64,000 nucleotides of DNA, taken from assembly GCA_021414025.1 (NCBI GenBank), contig JAIOPG010000007.1, positions 118,008 to 182,007 on the forward strand, read 5' to 3'. The notes beneath the pieces were generated by a model. It saw only the letters and a list, made by a program, of their open reading frames with translations, was not told the origin of the DNA and ran no database searches. Every line of letters begins with the position of its first letter. Position 1 is the first letter of the stretch. Shown piece by piece: positions 31,392 through 49,299 of the stretch. The DNA is from Planctomycetota bacterium (GTDB taxonomy: Bacteria > Planctomycetota > Phycisphaerae > Phycisphaerales > SM1A02). The translations under genes and the position numbers were made by a program.

Positions 31392-31420
31392 AACGGCGAC
31401 CGGGTTGGTCGCGAAGTTTC
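31390..31420. terminator. Candidate bidirectional terminator hairpin
   Basis: Between the convergent mscL and DNA methyltransferase genes: GCGACC (31396-31401) pairs with GGTCGC (31407-31412), and outer arms GAAAC (31390-31394) and GTTTC (31416-31420) extend the stem. There is no clear T-run, so termination strength is uncertain. Confidence 0.4.
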
Positions 31421-33083
31421 AGTTGCGTCCCCTGCGGCGTGTGATCAGCGGCCGCCACCAGGCGAGTAGCGCTGCGCGGTCCTTTTGCGGCACCTCTCCT
31501 GCTTCCATGGCGAGCCGGGCGAATTCGTTGATTTGTTTTTCGCGGGCCGCGCCCTTTGATTTGTGCAATGTGCGCAGCACGTTGGCGGCGCGGTCCCATG
31601 CGGCCGTGTTCGTCGGCAGCGGCAGCGCCGCGACTTGCTTGGCGGAGAGTTTCAGCGCGCTCGGAGAAAGCCCGGCACCGGCGTGACGCCACCAGGCCTC
31701 GGCGCTAGTCACCGGCGAGAGCAGAGCCGCCAGAATTCGCCACAGGTCCGCGCTCTTGTGCGGCACCACGCGAATCAACGGAACGCTTGGAGCCAGGCGG
31801 CCGGTCGCGTCGACCACTGCTTCGATCACCTTGGTCTGCACAGCCACGATCACCTTGGGGCGACGGGCGTCGGCGAGCCACTCCTTCATGTAGGGATCTC
31901 GGGCGGCGGCTCGCTCATTGACTTCGGGGTGCTTCCATGCTTTCCCAAGAAGCCGAACCGGTTTCTCGCCCCACATGCAATGCGCCCAGTCGATCAGGCC
32001 GGTGGTGACAATGCGCAGGCCGCTCGAACTCTGGGAATCCTTGATCGCGCCGCGCAGGCCGTAGTACTGATCGCGGAAATCGGCGGCCACGCGAGCGCGA
32101 TCGCCGATGACGCCCGATGCGCGGGACTTCACCCGGGGAACTCCGGCGTGCGCCGCCATGGCCGCACTCCAGCGACCTTTCCATTCCGGCCACGACAGCT
32201 TCAAGCCCGGGCCAGGCAGCACTCGCAGCGATGGCGCGTGCGACCGCCCATTTCCCTTCGCTTTGTGAAAAGCAAGAATCGCAACATGCGTCGAGGCGCT
32301 CACCCACCGCTGCCGATCAAAGTAGATGCACTCCAGTTGGGCCAGAGTGCTCACGCGATCGCGAATCGCTTCTGCGTGGGACGCCGACAGGACGCTGATC
32401 GGCTCGATCATGGCCATGCGGCCGCCCGGCTTCAATGCCTCGGCGCCGAGCACCAGGAATGCGCCGGCCATGTCGGCGTAGCCGCGCACCACGCCATCGA
32501 AGCGGTCGAGCAATTTCTTGGCGCGGCTTCGCTGCACCACCGTCGCGCCGCCCAACTGGCTAAGGAAGGGTGGATTGCCCACAACGATGTCAAAGGAACC
32601 GATGAGGCTCCTCTCAAACAGCGCGTCGCCCACTCGAATTTGTTTCGCGAACTGCTTCGCTGCCGCTGGCGACAACTTGAGAATGTGCGCAATCCGAGTT
32701 CGCGCTATGGAAACCGCGATGGGATCGATGTCGACGCCGTGCAGACTTTTCGCGATCGCCTCCTTGGCGAAACCGGCTTTCACGAGCGAGCGGGCGGCCG
32801 CGATGAGCAGATTTCCGCTGCCGCATGCTGGGTCAAGCACGCTAGGGCAGGGCCGCGTTGACGCAGCGTGTGACCTTTTCAGATGGTCCTTCAACCAGGG
32901 TGTGAGCGAAAGTTGAATGAGCACATCCGCAAGAATTTGCGGCGTGTAGAAGGCGCCGAGCTGCGTGCGTCTCTGACCCGTAGTTTTTGAGGCGCGACCG
33001 AGCGAGGCTTCATAGGAAGCAGAGAGCCACTCCTGATCGATACCTGCGCGAAATGTTGCGGCGCTCGCCGATGTCCGTGGCAT
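31419..33083 (-). CDS. N6-adenine DNA methyltransferase, type II-like
   Basis: 554 residues. SAM-binding motif I DPACGSGNLL (about 86-95) and catalytic motif IV NPPF (about 168-171) identify an amino-methyltransferase; FYTPQILADVLI before motif I is typical of Eco57I/type IIG-type enzymes. The C-terminal half (about 260-540) should hold the target-recognition domain. No fused nuclease motif is seen, and no separate restriction gene lies beside it. Its start lies 36 bases from the tRNA-Gly gene on the other strand. Could be an orphan epigenetic methyltransferase or a remnant of a restriction-modification locus. Confidence 0.8.
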   Translation of the reverse strand: MPRTSASAATFRAGIDQEWLSASYEASLGRASKTTGQRRTQLGAFYTPQILADVLIQLSLTPWLKDHLKRSHAASTRPCPSVLDPACGSGNLLIAAARSLVKAGFAKEAIAKSLHGVDIDPIAVSIARTRIAHILKLSPAAAKQFAKQIRVGDALFERSLIGSFDIVVGNPPFLSQLGGATVVQRSRAKKLLDRFDGVVRGYADMAGAFLVLGAEALKPGGRMAMIEPISVLSASHAEAIRDRVSTLAQLECIYFDRQRWVSASTHVAILAFHKAKGNGRSHAPSLRVLPGPGLKLSWPEWKGRWSAAMAAHAGVPRVKSRASGVIGDRARVAADFRDQYYGLRGAIKDSQSSSGLRIVTTGLIDWAHCMWGEKPVRLLGKAWKHPEVNERAAARDPYMKEWLADARRPKVIVAVQTKVIEAVVDATGRLAPSVPLIRVVPHKSADLWRILAALLSPVTSAEAWWRHAGAGLSPSALKLSAKQVAALPLPTNTAAWDRAANVLRTLHKSKGAAREKQINEFARLAMEAGEVPQKDRAALLAWWRPLITRRRGRN

Positions 33084-33119: not shown

Positions 33120-33192
<73 letters not shown>

Positions 33193-33494: not shown

Positions 33495-34508
33495 TCACCC
33501 CTTGATGGACTTGTCGCAGCGGCCCAGCCATCTTCGCCACATGATGGCTAGCGCGTCATCGCGAGATTGGCTCGCTGCTTCGTTGCTCTCGTCACGCAGC
33601 CCGCGCCGTCTTGCATCCTCGGCGACCAGTATCCAGTACATCGGCTCCAGGCATCCTAGGCCACTCGCGCTGCGGATGGACGGAAGTCTCACCAGTTGAG
33701 AGTGGTCGCAAGAAGTCAGTTCGACGGCCAGGCGATACAGCGCTCGCCAGGCAGACTCTGCTTCATTGCGAGGAAGGCGGATGTCGGCCGATTCGAACAA
33801 CGGCGGAGGGTCAGGGTCGATTGTGAATTCCTTTAGCGCATCCGTGTAGGCGTGGAGACTGCTTATAGCGTGCGAGTAGCTGCCGAGTTCGACACCCAAC
33901 CATCCGGCTATGACTTCCTGGATGAACGTGAACTGCACAAGGTTGTAGGGCAGGCCACGGAACAGGTCGTTGCTCCTACAAGTCTGAAGCCAATGAAGTC
34001 GGCCATGGACCAGCCTCAGGCAGCTGAGCACGTTGCAGGGCACGTCTCCAGATCTCGCAATGCCGTCATCGGACGGGAGATCGTCCGGCGGGTTCCAAAT
34101 CGAGAGCACCACTTGGCGTGTCTCTCCGTTCGCACTCAGTACAGCGGCCGCACGGCCGAGTTGGTCAAATCCCCATCGCCCTCGGAGCCGAGCGCCGTAC
34201 GCACCCGCCGCTCGTGCGCCGCCACCCACAAACTTGCCATACACCGGGAACCAATGTTCGAGGAAGGGCACGTCATCTGCCCCCGCAAGAATCTGTACCA
34301 CCTCTGCGATAGCGAAAGCGATGTTCATAGCGGGCAATCGAGACGCCACCCAGCGGGCCCGAGGATTGCTGATCGAGACTGAAGCGTGCAACATCTCAAC
34401 CGTGTTGCCGGCACGCGAGCCCACCTCGTGAGTGCCGACGCGGCCGATGATTGAGGAAGCCGCTTGACGCCAGACAGCGTCCGCAGATTGTGCGTCAAAT
34501 ACCTTCAA
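33495..34508 (-). CDS. Thymidylate synthase family protein with active site intact
   Basis: 337 residues (bacterial ThyA about 264, so about 70 longer). ThyA-family residues: Arg131 and the segment VVLSIWNPPDD; catalytic Cys158 in DVPCN; the dUMP-phosphate motif CRSND (177-181) then GLPYN with Asn189, which in ThyA selects uracil over cytosine; and LHAY with His219 and Tyr221. The first 60 residues and the C-terminal about 110 have no ThyA match that I can see. It may methylate or hydroxymethylate dUMP; the phage dUMP hydroxymethylases are ThyA homologues of this kind. Last gene of the operon; ATGA overlap with the gene before. Confidence 0.8.
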   Translation of the reverse strand: MKVFDAQSADAVWRQAASSIIGRVGTHEVGSRAGNTVEMLHASVSISNPRARWVASRLPAMNIAFAIAEVVQILAGADDVPFLEHWFPVYGKFVGGGARAAGAYGARLRGRWGFDQLGRAAAVLSANGETRQVVLSIWNPPDDLPSDDGIARSGDVPCNVLSCLRLVHGRLHWLQTCRSNDLFRGLPYNLVQFTFIQEVIAGWLGVELGSYSHAISSLHAYTDALKEFTIDPDPPPLFESADIRLPRNEAESAWRALYRLAVELTSCDHSQLVRLPSIRSASGLGCLEPMYWILVAEDARRRGLRDESNEAASQSRDDALAIMWRRWLGRCDKSIKG

Positions 34509-35569
34509 GTGCGGGTCCGTCGCAGTTGTTTGGAAAGCAAATCATTGATTTTCCACTTCGGTGGAAACCAGAGCGCCAACGGCTCGGGCCTAGCTTGGAA
34601 TACTTGTTTGATACGGGTGCGTCCTGTCAGTCCAATCACCTTCGGATGGATCACCCGGGCGTACTTGTCGACCTCGCAGAACAGATTTTGGCAGTCGATT
34701 AACTGGAGACGACGGTCTCCCAATCGCTCGAATTGCAGTCCGCGCTGTTCGAACTCGTGGTCCTGCCGATCGGCCACGAGCTTGATGAGGTCGACCTCGC
34801 TGAGCCCGCCCCGAGAACCAAAGCACTTGGCGATGCCGTCACGCGCTCCCGGCCCGGGCACCACGAACGTCATCTCGTCGAAGTCCATGACCGGTGAATA
34901 GTTGAGATCAATCGCAAGTTGGAAGGCGAGAAATGGTCCGAGGGTGGGGTATGACCGCAGAGCTTCGTACACGGCTCCCAGAGAGGACGCACTCGTGACC
35001 CGGTTCACAATGCCATCCTTCATCATGTAGTTGATCAGAGCAAGGTGATTGCGGTGTTTCTCTGCGGAACCGAACGTTGAGCGTCCAGAGGGCATGATGT
35101 AGGCGCCAGAGTAGATACGGAGTCCAGTTGTCCGTGCGCGCGTCAACACACTCGCATACCGGGTCGGGTTGAATCCCTTCCAAGCCAATTCGCCCAAGTG
35201 ACGCTGGAGCAGATGCCATGTCTCAATCTTGTTGAACAGCTTGAACAGTAGTATGCGGAAGACAACCTCTTCGGCACGATCGGACCCACGGTAGATAACC
35301 TGAGCGATCAGAAACTGACTCACACGGTCAGCCGCTCGGTATGCATTGGTAAACTTGTGACGCAGAAGCACCGGGTCGTTCGTCCAAGGCGACAGGGTGC
35401 CCCGTGCTCGTCTCATCAAGATCGCCTGACGCTCAGCCGCAAACCTCCAGTAGCTCTCATACACCGGGGTCGTGTTAACCGGACTCAGCCGGCTAAACAC
35501 ATACGGCGGAGCAGTGCGCATCGTCGACGCAGGTTTGCGATTTCGGATCTTGGTCGTGGCGCGCGGCAT
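34505..35569 (-). CDS. 5-hmdU DNA kinase helical-domain-like protein (putative thymine hypermodification enzyme)
   Basis: 354 residues, no membrane segment. A mostly helical protein with FAAERQAILMRRARG, SPWTNDPVLL, FTNAYRAADRVSQFL and RILLFKLFNKIETW, which match the helical domain of phage 5-hydroxymethyl-dU DNA kinases and the alpha-glutamyl/putrescinyl thymine pyrophosphorylase group. In phages these proteins act on hydroxymethyluracil or its phosphorylated forms in DNA. I recognise the family from memory; no search was possible. The separate P-loop kinase encoded just upstream (8-base gap) could supply the kinase half that is fused in phage proteins. Confidence 0.68.
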   Translation of the reverse strand: MPRATTKIRNRKPASTMRTAPPYVFSRLSPVNTTPVYESYWRFAAERQAILMRRARGTLSPWTNDPVLLRHKFTNAYRAADRVSQFLIAQVIYRGSDRAEEVVFRILLFKLFNKIETWHLLQRHLGELAWKGFNPTRYASVLTRARTTGLRIYSGAYIMPSGRSTFGSAEKHRNHLALINYMMKDGIVNRVTSASSLGAVYEALRSYPTLGPFLAFQLAIDLNYSPVMDFDEMTFVVPGPGARDGIAKCFGSRGGLSEVDLIKLVADRQDHEFEQRGLQFERLGDRRLQLIDCQNLFCEVDKYARVIHPKVIGLTGRTRIKQVFQARPEPLALWFPPKWKINDLLSKQLRRTRT

Positions 35570-35577
35570 CGAGTTAC

Positions 35578-36198
35578 TCAGGCAGAAGGAGTTGGGCGCT
35601 GGGCAGCCAATCCGCCCAGGATGAGTTCGGAATTGTCTGCGTGGTTGCCATCGTCATGAAGGACATGGACTGGGAACGAGACTCCTAGCGACTCCACGAA
35701 TTCCGAGTACGCGGTGTGGAGACGACTGCAGTCGTCACATGGCGCCGCCGCACCGCTTCTGCGCCCCATGAGCACATAGGCGGCGGTCGGTGCTGCAAAA
35801 CCCCAGTGGTGTTCGGCGAGTTGCCGAAGCAGGGTTAGGGTCGTATCGTCAATACCGGCAACACGGCCGTACACAATCGTGGACCACCAGAAGCGATCCA
35901 TGATGACGGTATCGCCCCGCTCGTATGCGGGTCGAATTCGGGTTCGGATAGCATCTATGTGGGCGGCGGCATGAAGCACCTGAAGTGCTGCCGCATCGAT
36001 GCGAGTAACGCCATATACAGCGGGGTTGTGGTGCAAATCATAAACGAGTTTCCCTAAAGTTCCGGGTTCGTTGCCTGGAAATGCGAAACATGACACAGCC
36101 TTGCCGTCGGCACGCAATCGCTCGGCCAAGAGCCGTGAAGTCGTGCTCTTACCCGCGCCATCAGGTCCCTCCAAAATGATCAAGCGTCCTAGGGTCAT
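35578..36198 (-). CDS. Thymidylate-kinase-like P-loop kinase
   Basis: 206 residues, the normal size for dTMP kinase. Walker A GPDGAGKST (about 10-18), and a DRFWWSTIVYG segment that corresponds to the DRY/H-x-x-S-x-x-x-Y motif that holds the nucleotide monophosphate. The LID region and C-terminus differ from housekeeping Tmk: a CDDC pair (about 151-154) is unusual. ATGA overlap with the upstream thymidylate-synthase-like gene. In this context it could phosphorylate a modified dUMP, or act as a 5-hmdU kinase on DNA. Not expected to be the cell's only Tmk. Confidence 0.75.
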   Translation of the reverse strand: MTLGRLIILEGPDGAGKSTTSRLLAERLRADGKAVSCFAFPGNEPGTLGKLVYDLHHNPAVYGVTRIDAAALQVLHAAAHIDAIRTRIRPAYERGDTVIMDRFWWSTIVYGRVAGIDDTTLTLLRQLAEHHWGFAAPTAAYVLMGRRSGAAAPCDDCSRLHTAYSEFVESLGVSFPVHVLHDDGNHADNSELILGGLAAQRPTPSA

Positions 36199-37040
36199 GC
36201 AGTAGCCTCCTCCGCTACGGGTGCTTCCGACACGATTCCTCGCAGGCAGGTGGCGAGCGCCCGTGTGGCCGACTTGGAAACGCCGCCGCGTTCGGGCAGG
36301 GCAACAAAGATGTTCACGCGGGCGAGGGGCAGGTCCATTTCGTGGGCCATGAACGTCGCGAGCTGGCACAAGCCGAGGTAGTTGCCGTATCCACGGTCAA
36401 AGATGTATTCCGTAGGGTAATACGCCGAAAGAGCGAGCCCTTGATCGGTGTGACTGAAGCTGATTTGCTGCAAGCATGGGAATCCGGCGAGTGCGGCCCC
36501 GGTGTGGTCCTTTGCCGGGTCGTAGAGGCTTACCTGGAGTGCACTGCGTCTGGTCGTGCCCTCATCGCGCTCCCACCACCGAAGGATTTCTCCAAGCTGA
36601 TTGACCCGCTTTGGCTCAAGGGCGACACCGTGAACCCCGGTGGCATCAATCATCCGGAGGAAGTAGGTGCCGCGGCGATTGAGCCCACAGATACGTTTGA
36701 GCCGAGGAAACACTCTCGTTGTGTAGTGCTCAAAAAGCTCCGTAGCGGGGCGCGGAGCACGGGGCGACCAACACATGTGTGGGAAGATGGTGCTCGCGGT
36801 GGCGGATACATTCTGGACTTTGCGTTTGCCGGCAACCCGATTGATGGCGATGATCGTCCGGTCGAGCGCCGCTCGGATTTCGGCGTTTTCAACGGGTTCG
36901 CGGAGACCATTGAACTCGGTGATCGATAGAACAAGCGGATGCGGGAGTTCGCCCCTCGGCGCGTCAAACACACGCACAAAGGCTAGCGCCCACGCCACGG
37001 ACAAGTTTCCCGCGGGCACGACGATGGCGTCATGGCTCAT
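36195..37040 (-). CDS. Divergent thymidylate-synthase-like protein
   Basis: 281 residues from ATG 37040 (GGAGG upstream). The C-terminal two thirds follow the ThyA pattern: TRRSALQVSLYDPAKD aligns with the arginine and W-x-P-x-x-D strand, FPCL keeps a cysteine in the catalytic position (Cys189), and YGNYLGLCQL keeps the asparagine (Asn220). The Arg-Ser of the phosphate-binding motif is replaced by Tyr-Pro (208-209), so normal dUMP binding is doubtful. I place it in the thymidylate synthase superfamily by eye; it may accept another substrate, or be a regulatory or sensing paralogue of the second enzyme. Overlaps the ImmA-like gene by 11 bases. Confidence 0.55.
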   Translation of the reverse strand: MSHDAIVVPAGNLSVAWALAFVRVFDAPRGELPHPLVLSITEFNGLREPVENAEIRAALDRTIIAINRVAGKRKVQNVSATASTIFPHMCWSPRAPRPATELFEHYTTRVFPRLKRICGLNRRGTYFLRMIDATGVHGVALEPKRVNQLGEILRWWERDEGTTRRSALQVSLYDPAKDHTGAALAGFPCLQQISFSHTDQGLALSAYYPTEYIFDRGYGNYLGLCQLATFMAHEMDLPLARVNIFVALPERGGVSKSATRALATCLRGIVSEAPVAEEATA

Positions 37041-37896
37041 CGGGATCCTCCAAGTGCCTGTGCACCGCAGCACCGTCGTAGCACTTTGGCATTACGCGAA
37101 TGAATGAGCTCCACTCCGAACGGGCATCCTCCGCTCGTGCTAGTCCCCGTCGAACCGCGCAGATGGTCACACGGTCGGCCGACTGGTCAACGATCTCCAC
37201 GGCGTTCCCCTCAATACTGGAGCCGGCCGGCAGAAATGCCAAGTCGCCAACGACAAGGTCCACGGGACGGTCCGACCAGTGCTTGTCCACGACAAAGACA
37301 TTCTCGGAAGTTGGGCGACCTGTGATTGTTTGGCGGATTGAATTCGCTTGGAACCCAACCAAGTGATCAAACACGGGACCAGCGATGGAGCGGATCGTCC
37401 AGCGGAGATGATGGACGAGTGTCTGATACCCAACGCCCAAATGCCCCGCGGCGATGAACACCTGCTCGGGCGTTGGCCTCGCCATCGACCATCCGCGTGA
37501 CCCGAATACGCGAGTCACCGCGGCTTGTGGCATCAACAAGTGTCCGCCGAAGAGGTTGGCGAGCATTTCCTCTGGGTCTTGTGCACGACTTCGACCGGCA
37601 CCCTCGATGTATTCATCGACTTTCGTGCCGTGCCCGAACACATGGTGCGCGATCTCGTGCGCACAAGTCGAGGATTGGTAGCCGGCGGGACGATCTGACC
37701 CAAGGACGATTGTCGGGTCGTCCCCTCCTGAGTACATTCCAGCCAAACTGGGAAGCGGCTTGTACCAGACCTCCACGTCCAGCTGTTCGGCGACATCAAC
37801 TGCGCACACAGCGTGGTCGGTGGGGATAGCGAGCCGTTTACGGAGTTCGATCGCGCGGCGGAGTGCGAGCCGGGCAACATCGATGGTGGCAAGCAT
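37030..37896 (-). CDS. ImmA/IrrE-family metallopeptidase
   Basis: 288 residues; start is ATG 37896 or the GTG one codon earlier, both overlapping the XRE stop. Zinc-peptidase motif HEIAHH (81-86) followed by a third ligand in EEMLANLFGGHLLMP, the standard ImmA/IrrE arrangement. The C-terminal 150 residues hold a second mixed domain of unknown role. ImmA/IrrE peptidases paired with an XRE repressor cleave the repressor upon a stress signal; the XRE gene is directly upstream in the same operon, so that role is likely here. Confidence 0.85.
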   Translation of the reverse strand: MLATIDVARLALRRAIELRKRLAIPTDHAVCAVDVAEQLDVEVWYKPLPSLAGMYSGGDDPTIVLGSDRPAGYQSSTCAHEIAHHVFGHGTKVDEYIEGAGRSRAQDPEEMLANLFGGHLLMPQAAVTRVFGSRGWSMARPTPEQVFIAAGHLGVGYQTLVHHLRWTIRSIAGPVFDHLVGFQANSIRQTITGRPTSENVFVVDKHWSDRPVDLVVGDLAFLPAGSSIEGNAVEIVDQSADRVTICAVRRGLARAEDARSEWSSFIRVMPKCYDGAAVHRHLEDPDEP

Positions 37897-38243
37897 CACG
37901 CGCCACCTTTCTTCCCGATCGCTGTGAGCAACTTGATCACGCGCTTGAGGTCGGCGGGCTTGAGCCGCCTGAGCTCTTTCGCCGCAAGCTCAAGCTGGGG
38001 ATCAACCGCTTCTTTGTCCGGGTCCTCTGTCTTCGTCAGCCAGGACACAGAAACGCGGTAATGCTGGGCGAAGAGTGGAAGTTCCTCCGCAGCCACGCGG
38101 CGCTGACCAGCCTCGATCTGGCTCATTGTTGGTCGGTGCCAACCCATTAGTTTGGCCACCTGGCCCTGGCTCAGGCCCGCTTGCTCCCGCGCAATGCGCA
38201 GGCGGTTTGCGATGGAATCACGTTGCATACCTGATGCGGACAT
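37896..38243 (-). CDS. XRE-family transcriptional regulator
   Basis: 115 residues from ATG 38243. Cro/C1-type helix-turn-helix at about 12-66: the recognition segment LSQGQVAKLMGWHRPTMSQI carries the usual Q-x-x-V-A-x-x-x-G-x-x-x-x-x-I-S-x-I spacing. The C-terminal part is helical and basic. Stop overlaps the ImmA-like start. Probable autorepressor acting on the palindrome over the -10 box upstream of the operon, released by the ImmA/IrrE-type peptidase. Confidence 0.85.
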   Translation of the reverse strand: MSASGMQRDSIANRLRIAREQAGLSQGQVAKLMGWHRPTMSQIEAGQRRVAAEELPLFAQHYRVSVSWLTKTEDPDKEAVDPQLELAAKELRRLKPADLKRVIKLLTAIGKKGGA

Positions 38244-38247
38244 CGGG

Positions 38248-38538
38248 TCAGGCCCCTTTCTTTGCCGGGGTCGGCTGTTGTGCACGCGCCCATGCCTTGA
38301 GTTCCCCAAGAGTTCGCATGCGATTCTCCCTCTCGTGCACCAGCGGATTGAAGTCGCCGGGAACGGTGATTCCGAGCCTTGCCTCCAAGTCACAGGCCAA
38401 CTCAACGCCATCCTGACTCGTGAGACCTGCTTGCATCAGGTTCGAGCCGTCACCAATGGAGGTCGGACGACCTCCTCTGTTCAGCAGTTCTCCTACGATC
38501 CTCTCAACTACCCGATCCGACTTAATGCCCTTGTTCAT
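38248..38538 (-). CDS. Acyl/peptidyl-carrier-protein-like small protein
   Basis: 96 residues. Helix 2 region reads MQAGLTSQDGVELACDLEAR, close to the carrier-protein pattern G-x-D-S-L-x-x-x-E-L; Ser41 would carry phosphopantetheine, although Asp and Leu of D-S-L are replaced by Thr and Gln. LGITVPGDF then fits helix 3. First gene of the island operon; AAAGGG precedes the ATG. A carrier protein here suggests that an acyl or amino-acyl group is loaded and transferred. That the group ends on a nucleotide is speculation. Confidence 0.6.
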   Translation of the reverse strand: MNKGIKSDRVVERIVGELLNRGGRPTSIGDGSNLMQAGLTSQDGVELACDLEARLGITVPGDFNPLVHERENRMRTLGELKAWARAQQPTPAKKGA

Positions 38539-38554
38539 AAGTACCCTTTCGTAT

Positions 38555-38571
38555 GGTAATCGAATCTTACC
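38555..38571. promoter_or_regulatory. Candidate XRE operator
   Basis: 17-base imperfect palindrome with 5-base arms GGTAA and TTACC separated by 7 bases, covering the -10 box of the island promoter. Typical in size and position for a Cro/C1-type autorepressor site. The protein that binds it is inferred. Confidence 0.45.
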
Positions 38572-38591
38572 ACACTGTTCGGCAAAGTCAA
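38564..38591 (-). promoter_or_regulatory. Sigma-70-like promoter of the island operon
   Basis: On the minus strand TTGACT (38586-38591) and TAAGAT (38564-38569) are spaced by 16 bases; the expected start lies about 20 bases before the ATG at 38538. The A+T-rich setting stands out from the GC-rich surroundings. Confidence 0.6.
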
Positions 38592-38780: not shown

Positions 38781-41654
38781 TCACTTTGAAACTTTGCGGG
38801 GCTTCTTTGCCTTGCCGGTTAATCCAAGCAAGGGTTGCTCCAGCTTCTGATACATGCTGAAAAGGAACTCCACCCTCTCACGTTCGCTTGTGAAGGGCTC
38901 CTTGCGGTAGCACTTGTCCACGGCACGGTCGAGCGCGTCGTGCGCCTTCACCAAGGCTGGCGGCATTGCGCTTGGGTCGTACAAATCCGCAAGTGTCTGA
39001 CCTTTGCATTGGAACCGCGTGTCGAGAACGGCTTTCGCGGCATCTTCAATCAACTTTCGTTTCGCATCCGTGAAATCCTGTGGGAATGGATAGTTGTTGT
39101 AGACAAGGGACACCGAATAACGATAGTCCGACTTGATGCGCCCACAGATCTGCTTCACCCACGCCATGTGCATGGTGGAAGTTAGGATTCCGAAATGAAA
39201 GAGTTTTGCATCAGCGATGACTAAGCAACTGTTGCTTGTAAGCGTGTCAGCTGGCAAGTATCCGATCGGAATGAATCGTCGCGTTTCAGATGTATGAAGC
39301 GGAATGAGCAGATACGGAGCTTTCGGAATGAACTCCACATGAAACCGCGTTGGCGTTCGAGCCAGATTCTGGGTCGGAAGACTTTTACTTGCCTCACGAA
39401 ATTTCCGCACCGCCGCGATACGCTCCATAACCAGCGGCATGGAACGCAATTCCGCCGGCTCCGTGTCGCCAAGCCAAAGGCACCAGCGCGGCACATTTGA
39501 AATGAATTCGTCCGCGCCCATGAATCGGCGGAAGTACTTCGCCGACTTCGGCTCCTGGGCAATAAAAGCGTCACGCTCCTTCAAGGTAAAGAGATAGTTG
39601 CTGTCGTCAATTGGCTTGTTGCCAACCCCCGCCTCCGGAACTTTGCAAAGCGGCGTCGACCGGTTCGTGATGACAATGTCTCCACCTTCGACCAAATAGG
39701 GACTGATGTTCTTCGCCTGCACAACCAGGGGATTGGACGTTTCATAGTCCGTGATGCGCCGCTCCGTCGGGACCCCCTGCCCAAACCCAATGATGACGAC
39801 ATGGACATGCGCCGCTCCACGAGCCTCGCTCTCCCAGGGGAATGTGCGGTGGGCAAAGTGAATCTTGATGCCGCGCTTGAAGAGTTCGCCCCACAGCACG
39901 CCCACCTGCTCGCCGTGGCTGATGCTGTTGGTGGAAACGAAGGCACATCGAATCGGCGTGCCCTTGATGTAATCGCTGGATTTGAGATACCAACCCGACA
40001 CATAGTCAAGCAGGCCGCCGCTCTTGATGCCATCGGTCACCCGCTCCATGTCCTTGGATTGATCCGCCGAAAGAAGCTTGGCCCCGACGAATGGCGGATT
40101 GCCCATGATGAAGGAGCAGCGCGACGCCGGAAGGACTTGGTTCCAGTCCAGTTGAAGCGCGTTTCCAAGTTGAATCTTGGCGACATTTCGCAGCGGCAGG
40201 CGCGAGAATGAAATTCCATGCAGAATCTTTTGATCTTCCTGGCGCTCCGCAAGGATCAAGGCGACTTCCGCAATTCGCGCGGGCCACTCGCCGATCTCAA
40301 TGCCATGCATTTGGCTTGGCGAAACCTTGAGCTTTTGTGGGTCCAAATTACGGCCGTGCCTTTTGACATCCCCCTTTTTCTTGCGCTCATACTGCGACAA
40401 TCGCTCAAGGCATTCATGCTCGAGTCGTCGCAAGTTCTTGTAGGCGCACACGAGAAAGTTTCCACAACCACAGGCCGGATCCAGAAACTGAAGCGAGGAA
40501 ATTTTTTCATGGAATTTCACAAGCCGATTCGGTTCGTTTCCGCACCCCTCTAATTCCCGTTCCAATTCGTCCAGAAACAAGGATCGAATGACTTTCATGA
40601 TGTCCGCTTCGGAGGTGTAGTGCGCACCGACCTGCCGCCGCTCGCCCCTCTCCATGACGCATTGAAAAAGGCTTCCGAAGACCGCAGGCGATATCTGCGA
40701 CCAATCAAAGTCACAACAGCGCACCAAGGCGTCACGCATGGCGCTATTGAAATTTGTAAACCCTAAATCTTCCTTGAACAGGTCGCCATTGACATACGGC
40801 AGGTTCTCGAACAGGGGCGGCGGGCTTGGGTTGCGCTTGCCTTCCTGGGTTGGAGTGTCGAGCACGCGAAATGCATGGGCCAGCATGGCACCCAAATCCG
40901 AGCCGTCTTCGCGCGTGGATTTGACGATGTCGTAAAAATCGTTGTCCTGGAAAATATCAGTGTCTTCGGCGAACAAACAGAACAAGCATCGAACCAAGAA
41001 TTGCTGGAGTTGATGTCCTTGGTATCCCCCCGCCTCCAATGCATCATGCAACTTGCCCAGGACTTCAACAGCCTTGATGTTGATGCCAACTTCGTGCTCC
41101 GGCCGCTCGGCTTTCTTGCCGGCGATGAACATCAGAGCATCGATGTTCTTCGGCAAGTCGATGGTCTTGAAATTGGCAAGCGGTTCTTTGAGACCATCGG
41201 ATTCCAGGTCGTAGACCCGAATTCGTTCGAAGTCGCTGATGACCAAGTATCGGGGTGCTTCGTGCGGTCTACCTTCACGTGCGAAGCACTGCACATAGTC
41301 AACTGCTTGTTTCAGAGCCTTGGCAAATTCGCTTTTTGAGCACCCCCTGCTCTTCTGCTCGGCGATCATGACGCCGGGGTAGAAGACATCAATGGCGGAT
41401 GTGTAGCCCTTGAGATTAGGAATCGGCTCCTCAAATGTTGCCACCAACTTTCGGTCGATGCCATACACCTTGAATAGTTCCGCCCACCAAGTCTGCTTAT
41501 GACTTTCTTCTTTGGTTGGTTTGATCCCGTTATTGCCCTCCCATACTTGGGCAAATCGCTTTGCTGCCTCTTTCATCTGAGCCCTAGTCAGAGGCCGCTG
41601 GTCTCCTGAAGAATCGTTGAGGGGCATGGGTGCGGAAAGACTAACATCGGCCAC
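38781..41654 (-). CDS. MmeI-like type IIL restriction-modification enzyme
   Basis: 957 residues, near the 919 of MmeI. An N-terminal nuclease motif Asp89, Glu99 and Lys101 (D-x9-E-Q-K) is present, then a helical spacer, motif I DPACGCGNFL (about 405-414), motif IV NPPFVG (about 525-530) and a long C-terminal target-recognition region (570-900). Cleavage and adenine methylation would be in one chain. Its base composition is lower in GC than its neighbours and resembles the island operon. Reads in the same direction as the seven-gene operon but ends 242 bases before it, with its own promoter region upstream. Confidence 0.82.
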   Translation of the reverse strand: MADVSLSAPMPLNDSSGDQRPLTRAQMKEAAKRFAQVWEGNNGIKPTKEESHKQTWWAELFKVYGIDRKLVATFEEPIPNLKGYTSAIDVFYPGVMIAEQKSRGCSKSEFAKALKQAVDYVQCFAREGRPHEAPRYLVISDFERIRVYDLESDGLKEPLANFKTIDLPKNIDALMFIAGKKAERPEHEVGINIKAVEVLGKLHDALEAGGYQGHQLQQFLVRCLFCLFAEDTDIFQDNDFYDIVKSTREDGSDLGAMLAHAFRVLDTPTQEGKRNPSPPPLFENLPYVNGDLFKEDLGFTNFNSAMRDALVRCCDFDWSQISPAVFGSLFQCVMERGERRQVGAHYTSEADIMKVIRSLFLDELERELEGCGNEPNRLVKFHEKISSLQFLDPACGCGNFLVCAYKNLRRLEHECLERLSQYERKKKGDVKRHGRNLDPQKLKVSPSQMHGIEIGEWPARIAEVALILAERQEDQKILHGISFSRLPLRNVAKIQLGNALQLDWNQVLPASRCSFIMGNPPFVGAKLLSADQSKDMERVTDGIKSGGLLDYVSGWYLKSSDYIKGTPIRCAFVSTNSISHGEQVGVLWGELFKRGIKIHFAHRTFPWESEARGAAHVHVVIIGFGQGVPTERRITDYETSNPLVVQAKNISPYLVEGGDIVITNRSTPLCKVPEAGVGNKPIDDSNYLFTLKERDAFIAQEPKSAKYFRRFMGADEFISNVPRWCLWLGDTEPAELRSMPLVMERIAAVRKFREASKSLPTQNLARTPTRFHVEFIPKAPYLLIPLHTSETRRFIPIGYLPADTLTSNSCLVIADAKLFHFGILTSTMHMAWVKQICGRIKSDYRYSVSLVYNNYPFPQDFTDAKRKLIEDAAKAVLDTRFQCKGQTLADLYDPSAMPPALVKAHDALDRAVDKCYRKEPFTSERERVEFLFSMYQKLEQPLLGLTGKAKKPRKVSK

Positions 41655-45831: not shown

Positions 45832-48800
45832 TTACTCCTCGCCAAGAGCGACTTGTGACACAGAGGAAGTGGTTTGTGCCTCCAGAAGCACCAGATGCAT
45901 CGAAATATTCGTCATGGAGAGGCCATGTTCCTCGGCGATGACCTGCGCATAGGCGGTCAATTGCGGTGCGTGGTGCGCCGCCCGCTCCTGCTTCCACGCC
46001 TGCTGGTCTTGCGTGTCGCGGTCGAATGCGTCAGTCTTGAAGTCGATGATCCGGGCGCCCGTCCATTGCCCTGGTTTTCCAATCAGCTCCACCCGGTCGA
46101 TGATGCCCTCCTGCACGCCGCCGCTCTGGAAGAGGCGGACGAACTTGCGCTCATTGAAGAGCGCCGCATCGCCCTCGGGTTTGGCGAGCATTGACTTGAT
46201 GTCGCCGCATTGCAACTGTTCGATGGTCCGCTTCACCACCTCCGTGATGTTCGTCGGCGATCGCTGCGGAAAGAGTGCCCGCGCCTTGGCGACAAGTGGC
46301 GCAGCATCGGGCTTCCACTCGCCGCTCCAGCGCACGCTTTCCGCGACCAGGTGGGCGATGGTGCCGCGCTCGGTCGCAAGCAATTTCCCCGGCGTTCGAG
46401 TCGGTTGCGCCGCTCGCGCGGTCCAACTTCCTGACGCGGGTGCAACTGCGGGCGCCGAAGCCGCCTCGAACGAAGGCGAACGAAGGGCGCGAACTTTCGC
46501 CCCGTGCGCCGCCGGCGCCGACACTGCGACCCGAATTTCCTTGGCGCCATCTTGGGCGCCCTCCTTTGTGTCGCCCACCGGCCGAGTCCATTGCTCGTTG
46601 CCCAGCGTGGTGATCTCAAAGCCATTCTTTATTTCCGTCGTGGCGTCCGTCATGGTCAGGATCGCCTCGCACACCATTCCGGCGGGAGTTGGACCGAAAC
46701 TATCCTTCTTTTTTGCCGCGGTGATCCACAGACCCTGCCTGGCCCGCGTCAGCGCGACATAGAGCTGGCTCAGCTGCTCCTGCAGGCGGAAATCCTCCGC
46801 GTGCTCCATGGTGGATTGGTAGCGCTCGGGCACCGGATGCGCAGTGATCCACGGCACGACGCACTTGGGCGGCTCCAGCACCTGCTCGCGATCAACGGCG
46901 AATGTGGGACGCGAAGACTCCTTGGCATCGATGCCCGCGTGGTAGATCACGGCGTCCCATTCCAGACCCTTGGCCTGGTGGATGTTGATCACCTCGATCT
47001 CGTGGCTCGGCGGATCCTGCACGCGCAGCGCGGCCAGCGACTCCACCAAGTCATCGATGGTGCGCGACGAATCCTGCTCCAATTGCGTGGCTTCCTGGAT
47101 GAGTCGCGCCAGTCGCAGCCGGTCGCTCGAGTCGAAGATGGATTCCCCGGCCTTCTCCTGCTGGTCGATGTGATTGAGACGGCGAAGCCACTGCGAGAAT
47201 GTGCCGGCAATTCCCTGCTGGGCCAGCGTCCGGCGGATCGCGGCGGCGGCCTGACCGCGCGCGATGTCCCGCTGCTTGCGGATTTCGGGCGGCGCATCCT
47301 GGCACGCCCACTGCGGATCCAGTCCCAGCGCGCGCCCCAGCGGCGTGGTGGCCGCGCCAAAGAGGCTGATCGTGTCGCCGGGATGGGAGCTGAAGCGCAG
47401 CACGTCCAGGAACGCCACGACCGCGGGCGAAGTCTGCAGGTCGCCCCCCGCGCGGGCCACGCAGGGTGTCTCGGGCGAGATGGCGCGGATGCGCTCGACG
47501 AGGCGGGCCACATCCTTGTTGCGCCGCGCGATAATCGCGACCCTGATCTTGCCGCCGGCTCGTCGAAATTGCTCGATCGCGATCGCGGCGCTGGCCTCAA
47601 TCAGCATCTGCCCGCGATTGCCTTGGATGAAATTCAGCGCCCGGACCTGCACGCACCCGGCAAGATCCTTGTGCTTGGGCGCGGCCTCGTGATTGCAGTA
47701 GCCCTCGGTCCAATTGCGGCAGGCCACCTGGAAATTCTGCGTGCTCGGCTCCTCAGGATCCGCGAACACATTGGCATCGCCCGTTCGCAGGCGATTGAAT
47801 AGGTGGTCGACGAATCCAAGGATCACCGGGGCACTGCGCCAGGAGGTGAAGAGGTCGCGCTTCACGATGCGCCCTTCGGCGTGGCCCTCATGGATCATCG
47901 ATTCAAAGTTGCGCAGCAGCCGCGGCTCGCCGGCGCGCCATCCATAGATGGACTGCTTGGGGTCGCCCACCACCATCAGGCTGCGGAATCGCTCGTCGTC
48001 GTTGGTGGAGGCGATCTCCTGGGCCAGCAGCCGCAGCGCCAGCCACTGCCCCACGCTGGTGTCCTGGAACTCGTCCAGCAGCAGGTGGTCGATGCGGGCG
48101 TCGAGTCGGAAGGCGATGTCGCTCTTGTCGATGTCACGCATGGCGATCGAGAGCGAGCGGGTGACCGATTCAAAGGTCACCTTCTCCTCCTCGGCCATCA
48201 TGCGCCGCCACTCCTGGTCGATGCGCTGCAGGAATTCCGCCCAGCCGCGGGCGGCGCCGCCGATGGCGCGGTCCTCAATCGCGGCGATGTGCCCAAGCAA
48301 CATCCGGATGGCGGCGACGCAATCGCTGGGAATGGGAGTGCGATAGTAGAGAGGTGCATGGGGATCTTCGCAGACACTCGCCTGCGGCCCCCCCTTCTTC
48401 CATTCGCGCCATTCATTCATTGTGCGCGGAAGCGGATTTAAGTCTTCCAGCATCTTGCCATAGCCGCTGCGGGGTTTTGACATGGCATCCACGGCCCGCC
48501 GTAAATCATCAACGGCCTTGGCCAGCTGACTTGCGTCGAGCAGCTTTCCGGAAGTTTTTTCACTTGGCGGCGACCACGCGGGCGGAATCGATTCAGGATC
48601 GGTCCCCGGTGCGATCGAATCCCGGTAGGCGGTCAGGCCATTGTCCACCTTGTCCAGCAGGACACGCTCCACCGAACTCGCCGCGACACCGGAGCGCACA
48701 CTTTGCAATCGCTGGGCGTCCGCCTCCACATTGACGGAGGCGTCCATCACCCGCTGCAGCGCCCGCCGCGACGCCGCGATCGTCTCCGCCTCGCTCAGGA

Positions 48801-49299
48801 ATTGCAGGGGCAGCGGCAGGCCCGCCTCGCGTCCGAAGGACTGGGCCATGCGGGTGAAGACGCTGTCGATGGTGCGGATTTCCAGGCGGTCGAATTCCTG
48901 GGTCAATCGATTGAGGATCTGCGCCGGATCGAAGGCTGTGCGAAGCTCCGGATTGCGCTTGAGGATGTCGCCTTCCAGCGACGCGCGCTCCTTTTTCTGG
49001 GCCGCGGTGGCCTTTGGTGTGGCGCCCAGCACCGCGTCGGCGAGCCGCTTGAGAATGCGGTTGCGGATCTCCCCCGCCGCGGCGCGGGTGAAGGTGGTGG
49101 CGAGCACGGAGGCGGCGTTGAACTTTTCGCCGCCCTGGGCCTCGCGCTGCAGCAGCGCGGCGATGATCTCGATGTAACGCGTCGAGAGCTCGTAGGTCTT
49201 GCCGCTTCCGGCGTTGGCGACGATGCGGACCATGCGACTCATGCCGGATCCCGTATCGGCAGCTTCGATGCGAGCTTGATCGTTGGCGCGGACGCTCAT
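45832..49299 (-). CDS. addA: AddA-like helicase-nuclease
   Basis: 1155 residues. UvrD-type helicase: Walker A NAGSGKT (about 29-35), LLDEFQDT, GDPKQSIYGWR, and late motifs (VINIHQAKGLEWD, LYVALTRARQGL). A C-terminal PD-(D/E)XK nuclease shows DRVELIG then IIDFKTDAF. Unwinds and resects double-strand breaks for recombination. Overlaps the AddB-like gene by 4 bases, the normal AddAB (RexAB) order. Gene name follows this pairing. Confidence 0.85.
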   Translation of the reverse strand: MSVRANDQARIEAADTGSGMSRMVRIVANAGSGKTYELSTRYIEIIAALLQREAQGGEKFNAASVLATTFTRAAAGEIRNRILKRLADAVLGATPKATAAQKKERASLEGDILKRNPELRTAFDPAQILNRLTQEFDRLEIRTIDSVFTRMAQSFGREAGLPLPLQFLSEAETIAASRRALQRVMDASVNVEADAQRLQSVRSGVAASSVERVLLDKVDNGLTAYRDSIAPGTDPESIPPAWSPPSEKTSGKLLDASQLAKAVDDLRRAVDAMSKPRSGYGKMLEDLNPLPRTMNEWREWKKGGPQASVCEDPHAPLYYRTPIPSDCVAAIRMLLGHIAAIEDRAIGGAARGWAEFLQRIDQEWRRMMAEEEKVTFESVTRSLSIAMRDIDKSDIAFRLDARIDHLLLDEFQDTSVGQWLALRLLAQEIASTNDDERFRSLMVVGDPKQSIYGWRAGEPRLLRNFESMIHEGHAEGRIVKRDLFTSWRSAPVILGFVDHLFNRLRTGDANVFADPEEPSTQNFQVACRNWTEGYCNHEAAPKHKDLAGCVQVRALNFIQGNRGQMLIEASAAIAIEQFRRAGGKIRVAIIARRNKDVARLVERIRAISPETPCVARAGGDLQTSPAVVAFLDVLRFSSHPGDTISLFGAATTPLGRALGLDPQWACQDAPPEIRKQRDIARGQAAAAIRRTLAQQGIAGTFSQWLRRLNHIDQQEKAGESIFDSSDRLRLARLIQEATQLEQDSSRTIDDLVESLAALRVQDPPSHEIEVINIHQAKGLEWDAVIYHAGIDAKESSRPTFAVDREQVLEPPKCVVPWITAHPVPERYQSTMEHAEDFRLQEQLSQLYVALTRARQGLWITAAKKKDSFGPTPAGMVCEAILTMTDATTEIKNGFEITTLGNEQWTRPVGDTKEGAQDGAKEIRVAVSAPAAHGAKVRALRSPSFEAASAPAVAPASGSWTARAAQPTRTPGKLLATERGTIAHLVAESVRWSGEWKPDAAPLVAKARALFPQRSPTNITEVVKRTIEQLQCGDIKSMLAKPEGDAALFNERKFVRLFQSGGVQEGIIDRVELIGKPGQWTGARIIDFKTDAFDRDTQDQQAWKQERAAHHAPQLTAYAQVIAEEHGLSMTNISMHLVLLEAQTTSSVSQVALGEE

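Follow-up and report, generated by a model that had tools for sequence, protein, structure and literature searches.

Why should a bacterium keep, in a single operon, enzymes of the families with which phages build modified thymines, and why should these stand beside a repressor and a peptidase? Thymine hypermodification is a phage weapon against restriction. The question is raised by a 64,000-nucleotide stretch of a Planctomycetota genome (assembly GCA_021414025.1, contig JAIOPG010000007.1, positions 118,008 to 182,007), hereafter called the window. Seven adjoining genes in it encode a carrier protein, an XRE-type repressor, an M78 peptidase, a divergent enzyme of the thymidylate-synthase fold (TSa), a thymidylate-kinase-like kinase (TMK), a relative of the helical domain of phage 5-hydroxymethyldeoxyuridine (hmdU) DNA kinases (HMUDK_hel) and a second member of the thymidylate-synthase superfamily (TSb). 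The operon is an instance of thymidine-modification-type enzymes held in a probably inducible bacterial cassette, along with a carrier protein, a dedicated activating enzyme and a cross-phylum operator.

Recurrence of a five-gene core

HMUDK_hel was used to scan one genome per species, which gave 184 relatives, and the best 80 loci were kept. About 60 of these 80, from many phyla, have the genes for the carrier protein, XRE, M78, TSa and HMUDK_hel in this order on one strand, and the HMUDK_hel tree spans 13 named phyla. Among the five proteins, pairwise distances are correlated (Spearman rho 0.66-0.84, 0 of 500 permutations), to which host kinship contributes. In order to avoid the bias of HMUDK_hel as bait, an independent run with TSa was made on 392 genomes of the phylum. 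TSa was found in 4 of them, and HMUDK_hel adjoins it in all 4, compared to a base rate of 7 in 392 for HMUDK_hel. The recurrence of the five-gene core is far beyond chance, and TMK and TSb form an optional module. A first-pass annotation, made from this DNA alone, had proposed a seven-gene set; the operon holds as a unit, while the set that recurs has only five members. That annotation had also allowed that the genes might prove scattered, or that TSa and HMUDK_hel might fall in unrelated families; the neighbourhood is strongly conserved, and the two proteins belong to the thymidylate-synthase fold and to HMUDK_hel (E 3.6e-108), respectively. Presence of the cassette is patchy, since HMUDK_hel occurs in 6 of the 151 genomes of the order and in neither of the 2 others of the genus.

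In the window, all seven genes are complete and lie on the minus strand with intact frames, from 38538 down to 33495 (Table 1), and their successive spacings from the carrier gene to TSb are +4, -4, -11, -4, +8 and -4 bases. The start of the XRE gene was corrected, and the ATG used is at 38243. The tight operon first described was thus borne out, as were all of its family assignments, six of them by Pfam and the exception, TSa, by TIGR03283, an AlphaFold2 model and Foldseek. Orthologous genes have names in RefSeq, and PADLOC matched the enzymes of the operon to no named system. The host genome has its own ThyX for dTMP synthesis, a separate tmk and one acpS, and the operon is therefore accessory and unneeded for dTMP.

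Table 1. Genes and control elements of the operon, in window coordinates
Feature	Position	Strand	Evidence and remarks
Sigma-70-like promoter TTGACT-16-TAAGAT	38564..38591	-	1 found, 1.9 expected; weak by itself
Operator palindrome TGGTAA-N7-TTACCA, perfect	38554..38572	.	overlaps the -10 box
Carrier protein (ACP/PCP-like)	38248..38538	-	PF00550 (PP-binding) E 2e-5; invariant Ser41
XRE/CapH-like repressor, 115 aa	37896..38243	-	HTH_31 6e-14; capH 4e-8
M78 (ImmA/IrrE, CapP-like) metallopeptidase	37030..37899	-	PF06114 (Peptidase_M78) 9e-11; capP 3e-10; HExxH
TSa, divergent thymidylate-synthase-fold enzyme	36195..37040	-	TIGR03283 9e-6; AlphaFold2/Foldseek; invariant Cys189, Asn220
TMK, thymidylate-kinase-like P-loop kinase	35578..36198	-	PF02223 (Thymidylate_kin) 3e-17
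HMUDK_hel, 5-hmdU DNA kinase helical-domain protein	34505..35569	-	PF18723 3.6e-108; no P-loop of its own
TSb, predicted uracil-nucleotide 5-hydroxymethylase, thymidylate-synthase superfamily	33495..34508	-	PF00303 (Thymidylat_synt) 2.7e-15; TTG start

The operator and the regulator pair

The promoter already noted in the first-pass annotation lies in front of the carrier gene and overlaps a palindrome; the call is backed by where it lies and by the TTGAC boxes that many orthologues also have upstream. The palindrome, for which the chance expectation is none, is a copy with 2 mismatches of a family operator, GTAAGANNNTCTTAC. Allowing at most 2 mismatches, this operator precedes the carrier gene in 61 of the 63 loci that have such a gene, and its 18 sites elsewhere in 1.38 megabases are at about the level of shuffled sequence (25). 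A search of the same 1.38 megabases of loci for further accessory genes under the operator found none. The operator is conserved from Planctomycetota to Pseudomonadota, Bacteroidota and Cyanobacteriota, and a repressor that moves together with the cassette would account best for this.

XRE matches capH over almost its full length and the adjoining M78 protein matches capP, with an HExxH motif that is invariant among homologues and a conserved C-terminal domain. The locus thus has the marks of a CapH/CapP-type pair, namely an XRE gene adjoining an M78 gene with HExxH, and a putative operator over the promoter of their own operon. A small XRE repressor likewise stands beside an M78 peptidase in PprI/DdrO and in the CapH/CapP pair of cyclic-oligonucleotide-based anti-phage signalling systems (CBASS). 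Unlike the CBASS pair, the one described here is on a nucleotide-modification operon rather than a cyclic-oligonucleotide system, and has its own operator. Single-stranded DNA makes the M78-type peptidases PprI and CapP cut their repressors (PMC10904395), and by analogy the M78 protein of the operon may cleave XRE upon the same trigger. The peptidase and repressor switch that the first-pass annotation had suggested is, as a prediction, strengthened by these matches, the motif and the operator.

Candidate chemistry of the enzymes and the carrier

By fold, HMUDK_hel is nearest to the 5-hmdU DNA kinase of phage SP10 (Foldseek 2.6e-15), followed by proteins of phiW-14 and RSL1 and then by amino acid:DNA transferases, in agreement with the early link to phage thymine hypermodification. 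Identity between bacterial and phage HMUDK_hel is only about 25-37%, and a sequence search of the protein against solved structures returned chance matches only. The helical domain of the phage kinases is present in HMUDK_hel, and the P-loop domain is absent from the same chain; in the window, a P-loop kinase is supplied by the separate, adjoining TMK gene. In Acidobacteriota, Cyanobacteriota, Myxococcota and others, a TMK-like kinase is fused to HMUDK_hel, so that in the window the two proteins may be the halves of one 5-hmdU DNA kinase; alternatively, TMK may be a nucleotide kinase. HMUDK_hel relatives of known role act on hmdU already in phage DNA (PMC6449724). The fold search also returned DNA glycosylases at E 0.3, a weak likeness and a hint only.

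TSb is closest to the CMP 5-hydroxymethylase MilA (2.3e-47, compared to about 1e-23 for thymidylate synthases). It keeps all examined catalytic and dUMP-binding residues, the uracil-favouring Asn among them, carries PCN instead of PCH and, aligned to the B. subtilis thymidylate synthase, shows no equivalent of Trp80, which is a pattern that we take to be consistent with a hydroxymethylase. TSb is predicted to be a nucleotide 5-hydroxymethylase rather than a thymidylate synthase. For the AlphaFold2 model of TSa (predicted local distance difference test score 90), Foldseek gave E-values of 2.6e-9 with thymidylate synthases and 5e-8 with MilA. TSa keeps the fold, the catalytic Cys189 and the uracil-binding Asn220, both invariant, as well as Tyr94 and one Arg; when it was aligned by profile to TSb and the columns were counted, no equivalents of E. 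coli E58, R166, S167, H207 and Y209 were seen. Neither protein should be named a thymidylate synthase by function, so that of the two thymidylate synthase homologues first described, the fold and superfamily stand and the function does not. Among 2.9 million viral contigs, 3 (L102, L103 and L104) carry a TSa relative (28-41% identity), and these may be either phage or misassigned host DNA.

The carrier protein is highly divergent, and its phosphopantetheine Ser41 is the only fully invariant column (33-63 sequences). A holo-ACP synthase gene (PF01648; ACP, acyl carrier protein) occurs in 44 of 67 TSa loci, whereas none of 14 HMUDK_hel loci without TSa has one. No such gene was found near the operon of the window, but the genome as a whole has a single acpS. 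Together, the conserved serine and these synthase genes make it very probable that the carrier is phosphopantetheinylated. We put forward, tentatively and as possible rather than probable, a carrier-dependent route to hypermodified thymidine, in which, once the peptidase has cleared the repressor, the phosphopantetheine arm, installed by a dedicated AcpS, would bring a group or a thiol to a TSa-bound pyrimidine; the product would be a modified nucleotide or DNA base that phages are not known to make.

The remaining modules largely interchange. A MazG gene with MazG_C is found in 48 of the 67 TSa loci, and MazG tends not to occur together with TMK/TSb (Fisher p 7e-6). The alternatives to TMK/TSb, namely MazG-MazG_C and a dCTP deaminase-like enzyme or else a radical SAM gene, are likewise all of nucleotide enzymes, which speaks for the preferred reading given below. 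In three loci (L022 11065-12063, L053 10987-12075 and L076 11014-12075), reading of the sequence places a radical SAM gene right after HMUDK_hel, where it replaces MazG or TMK/TSb; on a Parabacteroides plasmid (L087), a radical SAM gene also adjoins HMUDK_hel. A Rhizobium plasmid locus (L086 680-9993) is an effector-bearing variant, with caspase-family and pYEATS genes upstream of AcpS, then a small open reading frame at the carrier position, a helix-turn-helix gene, M78, a C1 peptidase and HMUDK_hel.

A sister architecture was seen in ten loci, in which HMUDK_hel is accompanied by ThsB-type TIR, TIR-SLOG and Nmad2 proteins and TSa is absent (L035, L039, L047, L048, L030, L077, L009, L017, L032 and L051); MazG or TMK/TSb occur there too. 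This TIR type has no carrier, XRE/M78 pair or TSa, and neither TIR nor SLOG is encoded in the window, while three hybrid loci hold both sets. On the HMUDK_hel tree, 5 switches between these architectures have to be assumed, and HMUDK_hel is therefore common to both. The TIR type looks like a nucleotide-signal defence system. Burroughs reportedly described, in 2015, nucleotide-centric conflict systems with TIR, SLOG, Nmad and MazG_C, and the cassette shares HMUDK_hel and MazG_C with these.

Readings of the cassette

A thymidylate-synthase-superfamily enzyme, a nucleotide kinase and HMUDK_hel also occur together in phage thymidine hypermodification (M6, ViI, phiW-14 and SP10). In Shigella phage Ag3 (L100 4906-7065), a gene annotated as MazG-like, with no Pfam match, directly precedes HMUDK_hel, and the bacterial cassettes are likewise MazG-adjacent. 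The radical SAM gene behind HMUDK_hel in three bacterial loci is a further point of resemblance. Unlike the phage pathways, which are not known to include a carrier protein, an XRE/M78 pair or TSa, the bacterial cassette is regulated and is chromosomal or plasmid-borne. The DefensePredictor report names thymidylate synthase and 5-hmdU kinase among the domains newly validated in anti-phage systems of E. coli, and a dNMP kinase appears in the figure that shows them (PMC13092281). The same enzyme families as in the operon thus gave phage protection in E. coli; the accessible part of the report mentions no acyl carrier or ImmA-type gene and does not state gene order. With these domains validated and the orthologues named in RefSeq, the first claim that this set had no description was too strong. 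Two HMUDK_hel genes had no DNA-level match in E. coli genomes. For the type with carrier, XRE, peptidase, TSa and operator, no description was found in the literature searched, which is weak evidence, as many papers lie outside that search.

We give roughly even chances to the reading that the cassette is an inducible anti-phage defence acting through an hmdU-type nucleotide or DNA base. A defence role is likely, and so is hmdU-type chemistry. Gene content and order, the operator sequence, conservation and fold are observed; the substrates and the switch are inferred from the protein families, and the final product and its anti-phage effect are conjecture. At rest, XRE would bind the palindrome that overlaps the -10 box and keep the operon silent. 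A phage-linked signal, probably single-stranded DNA or DNA damage if CapP/CapH and PprI/DdrO are a guide, would then lead M78 to cut XRE. TSb, or other enzymes in other loci, would turn dUMP into 5-hmdUMP, which the TMK-like kinase would phosphorylate, unless this kinase and HMUDK_hel are the two halves of a 5-hmdU DNA kinase. HMUDK_hel would act on hmdU that is part of DNA, a further modification would be completed by TSa together with the phosphopantetheine carrier, and the modified nucleotide or base would stop phage replication.

Several points weigh against this scheme. Most orthologous loci have HMUDK_hel without a TMK-type P-loop kinase. The residues that TSa has lost serve dUMP binding, so its substrate may not be dUMP and one other than free dUMP must be considered. 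No enzyme to load the carrier was identified, and the operon of the window has no obvious effector such as a nuclease, TIR or membrane protein. The carrier type has no known activity, product or phage phenotype, and, as far as the accessible part of PMC13092281 goes, the E. coli systems do not demonstrably have the carrier, XRE, M78 or TSa.

A possible but rather doubtful alternative is that the modified nucleotide remains free, to terminate chains, poison a polymerase or act as a signal, with no enzymatic modification of DNA. The dCTP deaminase-like and MazG-type pool enzymes that accompany many cassettes argue for it, as do the switches of HMUDK_hel lineages between the carrier type and the TIR/SLOG/Nmad2 architecture, which would fit a nucleotide signal. 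However, the action of known HMUDK_hel relatives on hmdU in DNA, together with the weak structural likeness to DNA glycosylases, points the other way. We consider it unlikely that the cassette is a selfish or metabolic island element that salvages or repairs damaged pyrimidines and plays no part in defence. Every enzyme is nucleotide-related and no phage test of the carrier type exists, but the regulator pair is of a defence type, the distribution is patchy across 13 phyla, the homologues are located among restriction and abortive-infection genes, and related domains are validated (PMC13092281).

Slightly less likely again is that HMUDK_hel and its partners sense the hmdU DNA of invading phages and arrest the cell, which would be detection and not synthesis. 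The full catalytic set of TSb and the linked kinases point to synthesis, and the TIR effectors of the sister architecture fit sensing. Phages that carry hmdU are, as general knowledge has it, only a minority. That HMUDK_hel relatives act on the hmdU of phage DNA would be in keeping with detection (PMC6449724).

Next to the operon, an N6-adenine methylase gene (31419-33083), common to a same-genus genome, is followed by tRNA-Gly(ccc) (33120-33192) at the edge of the variable region. The same-genus genome shares genes up to MscL and the N6-methylase and is without the operon, which is partial empty-site evidence. The genomic island first proposed is supported by patchy presence, while its right-hand border was not found. 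On the same strand, 242 bases upstream of the operon, lies a complete MmeI-family type IIG restriction-modification enzyme (38781-41654) with a lower G+C of about 0.54. Further on is an AddA-like helicase-nuclease (45832-49299; UvrD and PD-(D/E)XK), with long relatives in the family's other genera and only distant partial matches in two same-genus genomes. That the cassette self-marks host DNA, as the first-pass annotation had also allowed, and does so in partnership with a restriction enzyme such as this close MmeI-like neighbour, we rate as quite improbable because restriction genes do not recur beside the cassette across the gene strings of the 80 loci, and both the type IIG enzymes' own methylase and a repressor/peptidase switch suggestive of induced rather than constant expression fit it poorly.

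Inducible anti-phage defence through hmdU-type chemistry is the reading that we prefer. Bacteria of many phyla have organised enzyme families of phage-type thymine modification into a self-regulated cassette with an operator, a carrier and an activating enzyme. We believe that this offers a testable system, with clear catalytic residues, for how modified thymidine nucleotides defend cells and why a carrier is needed.

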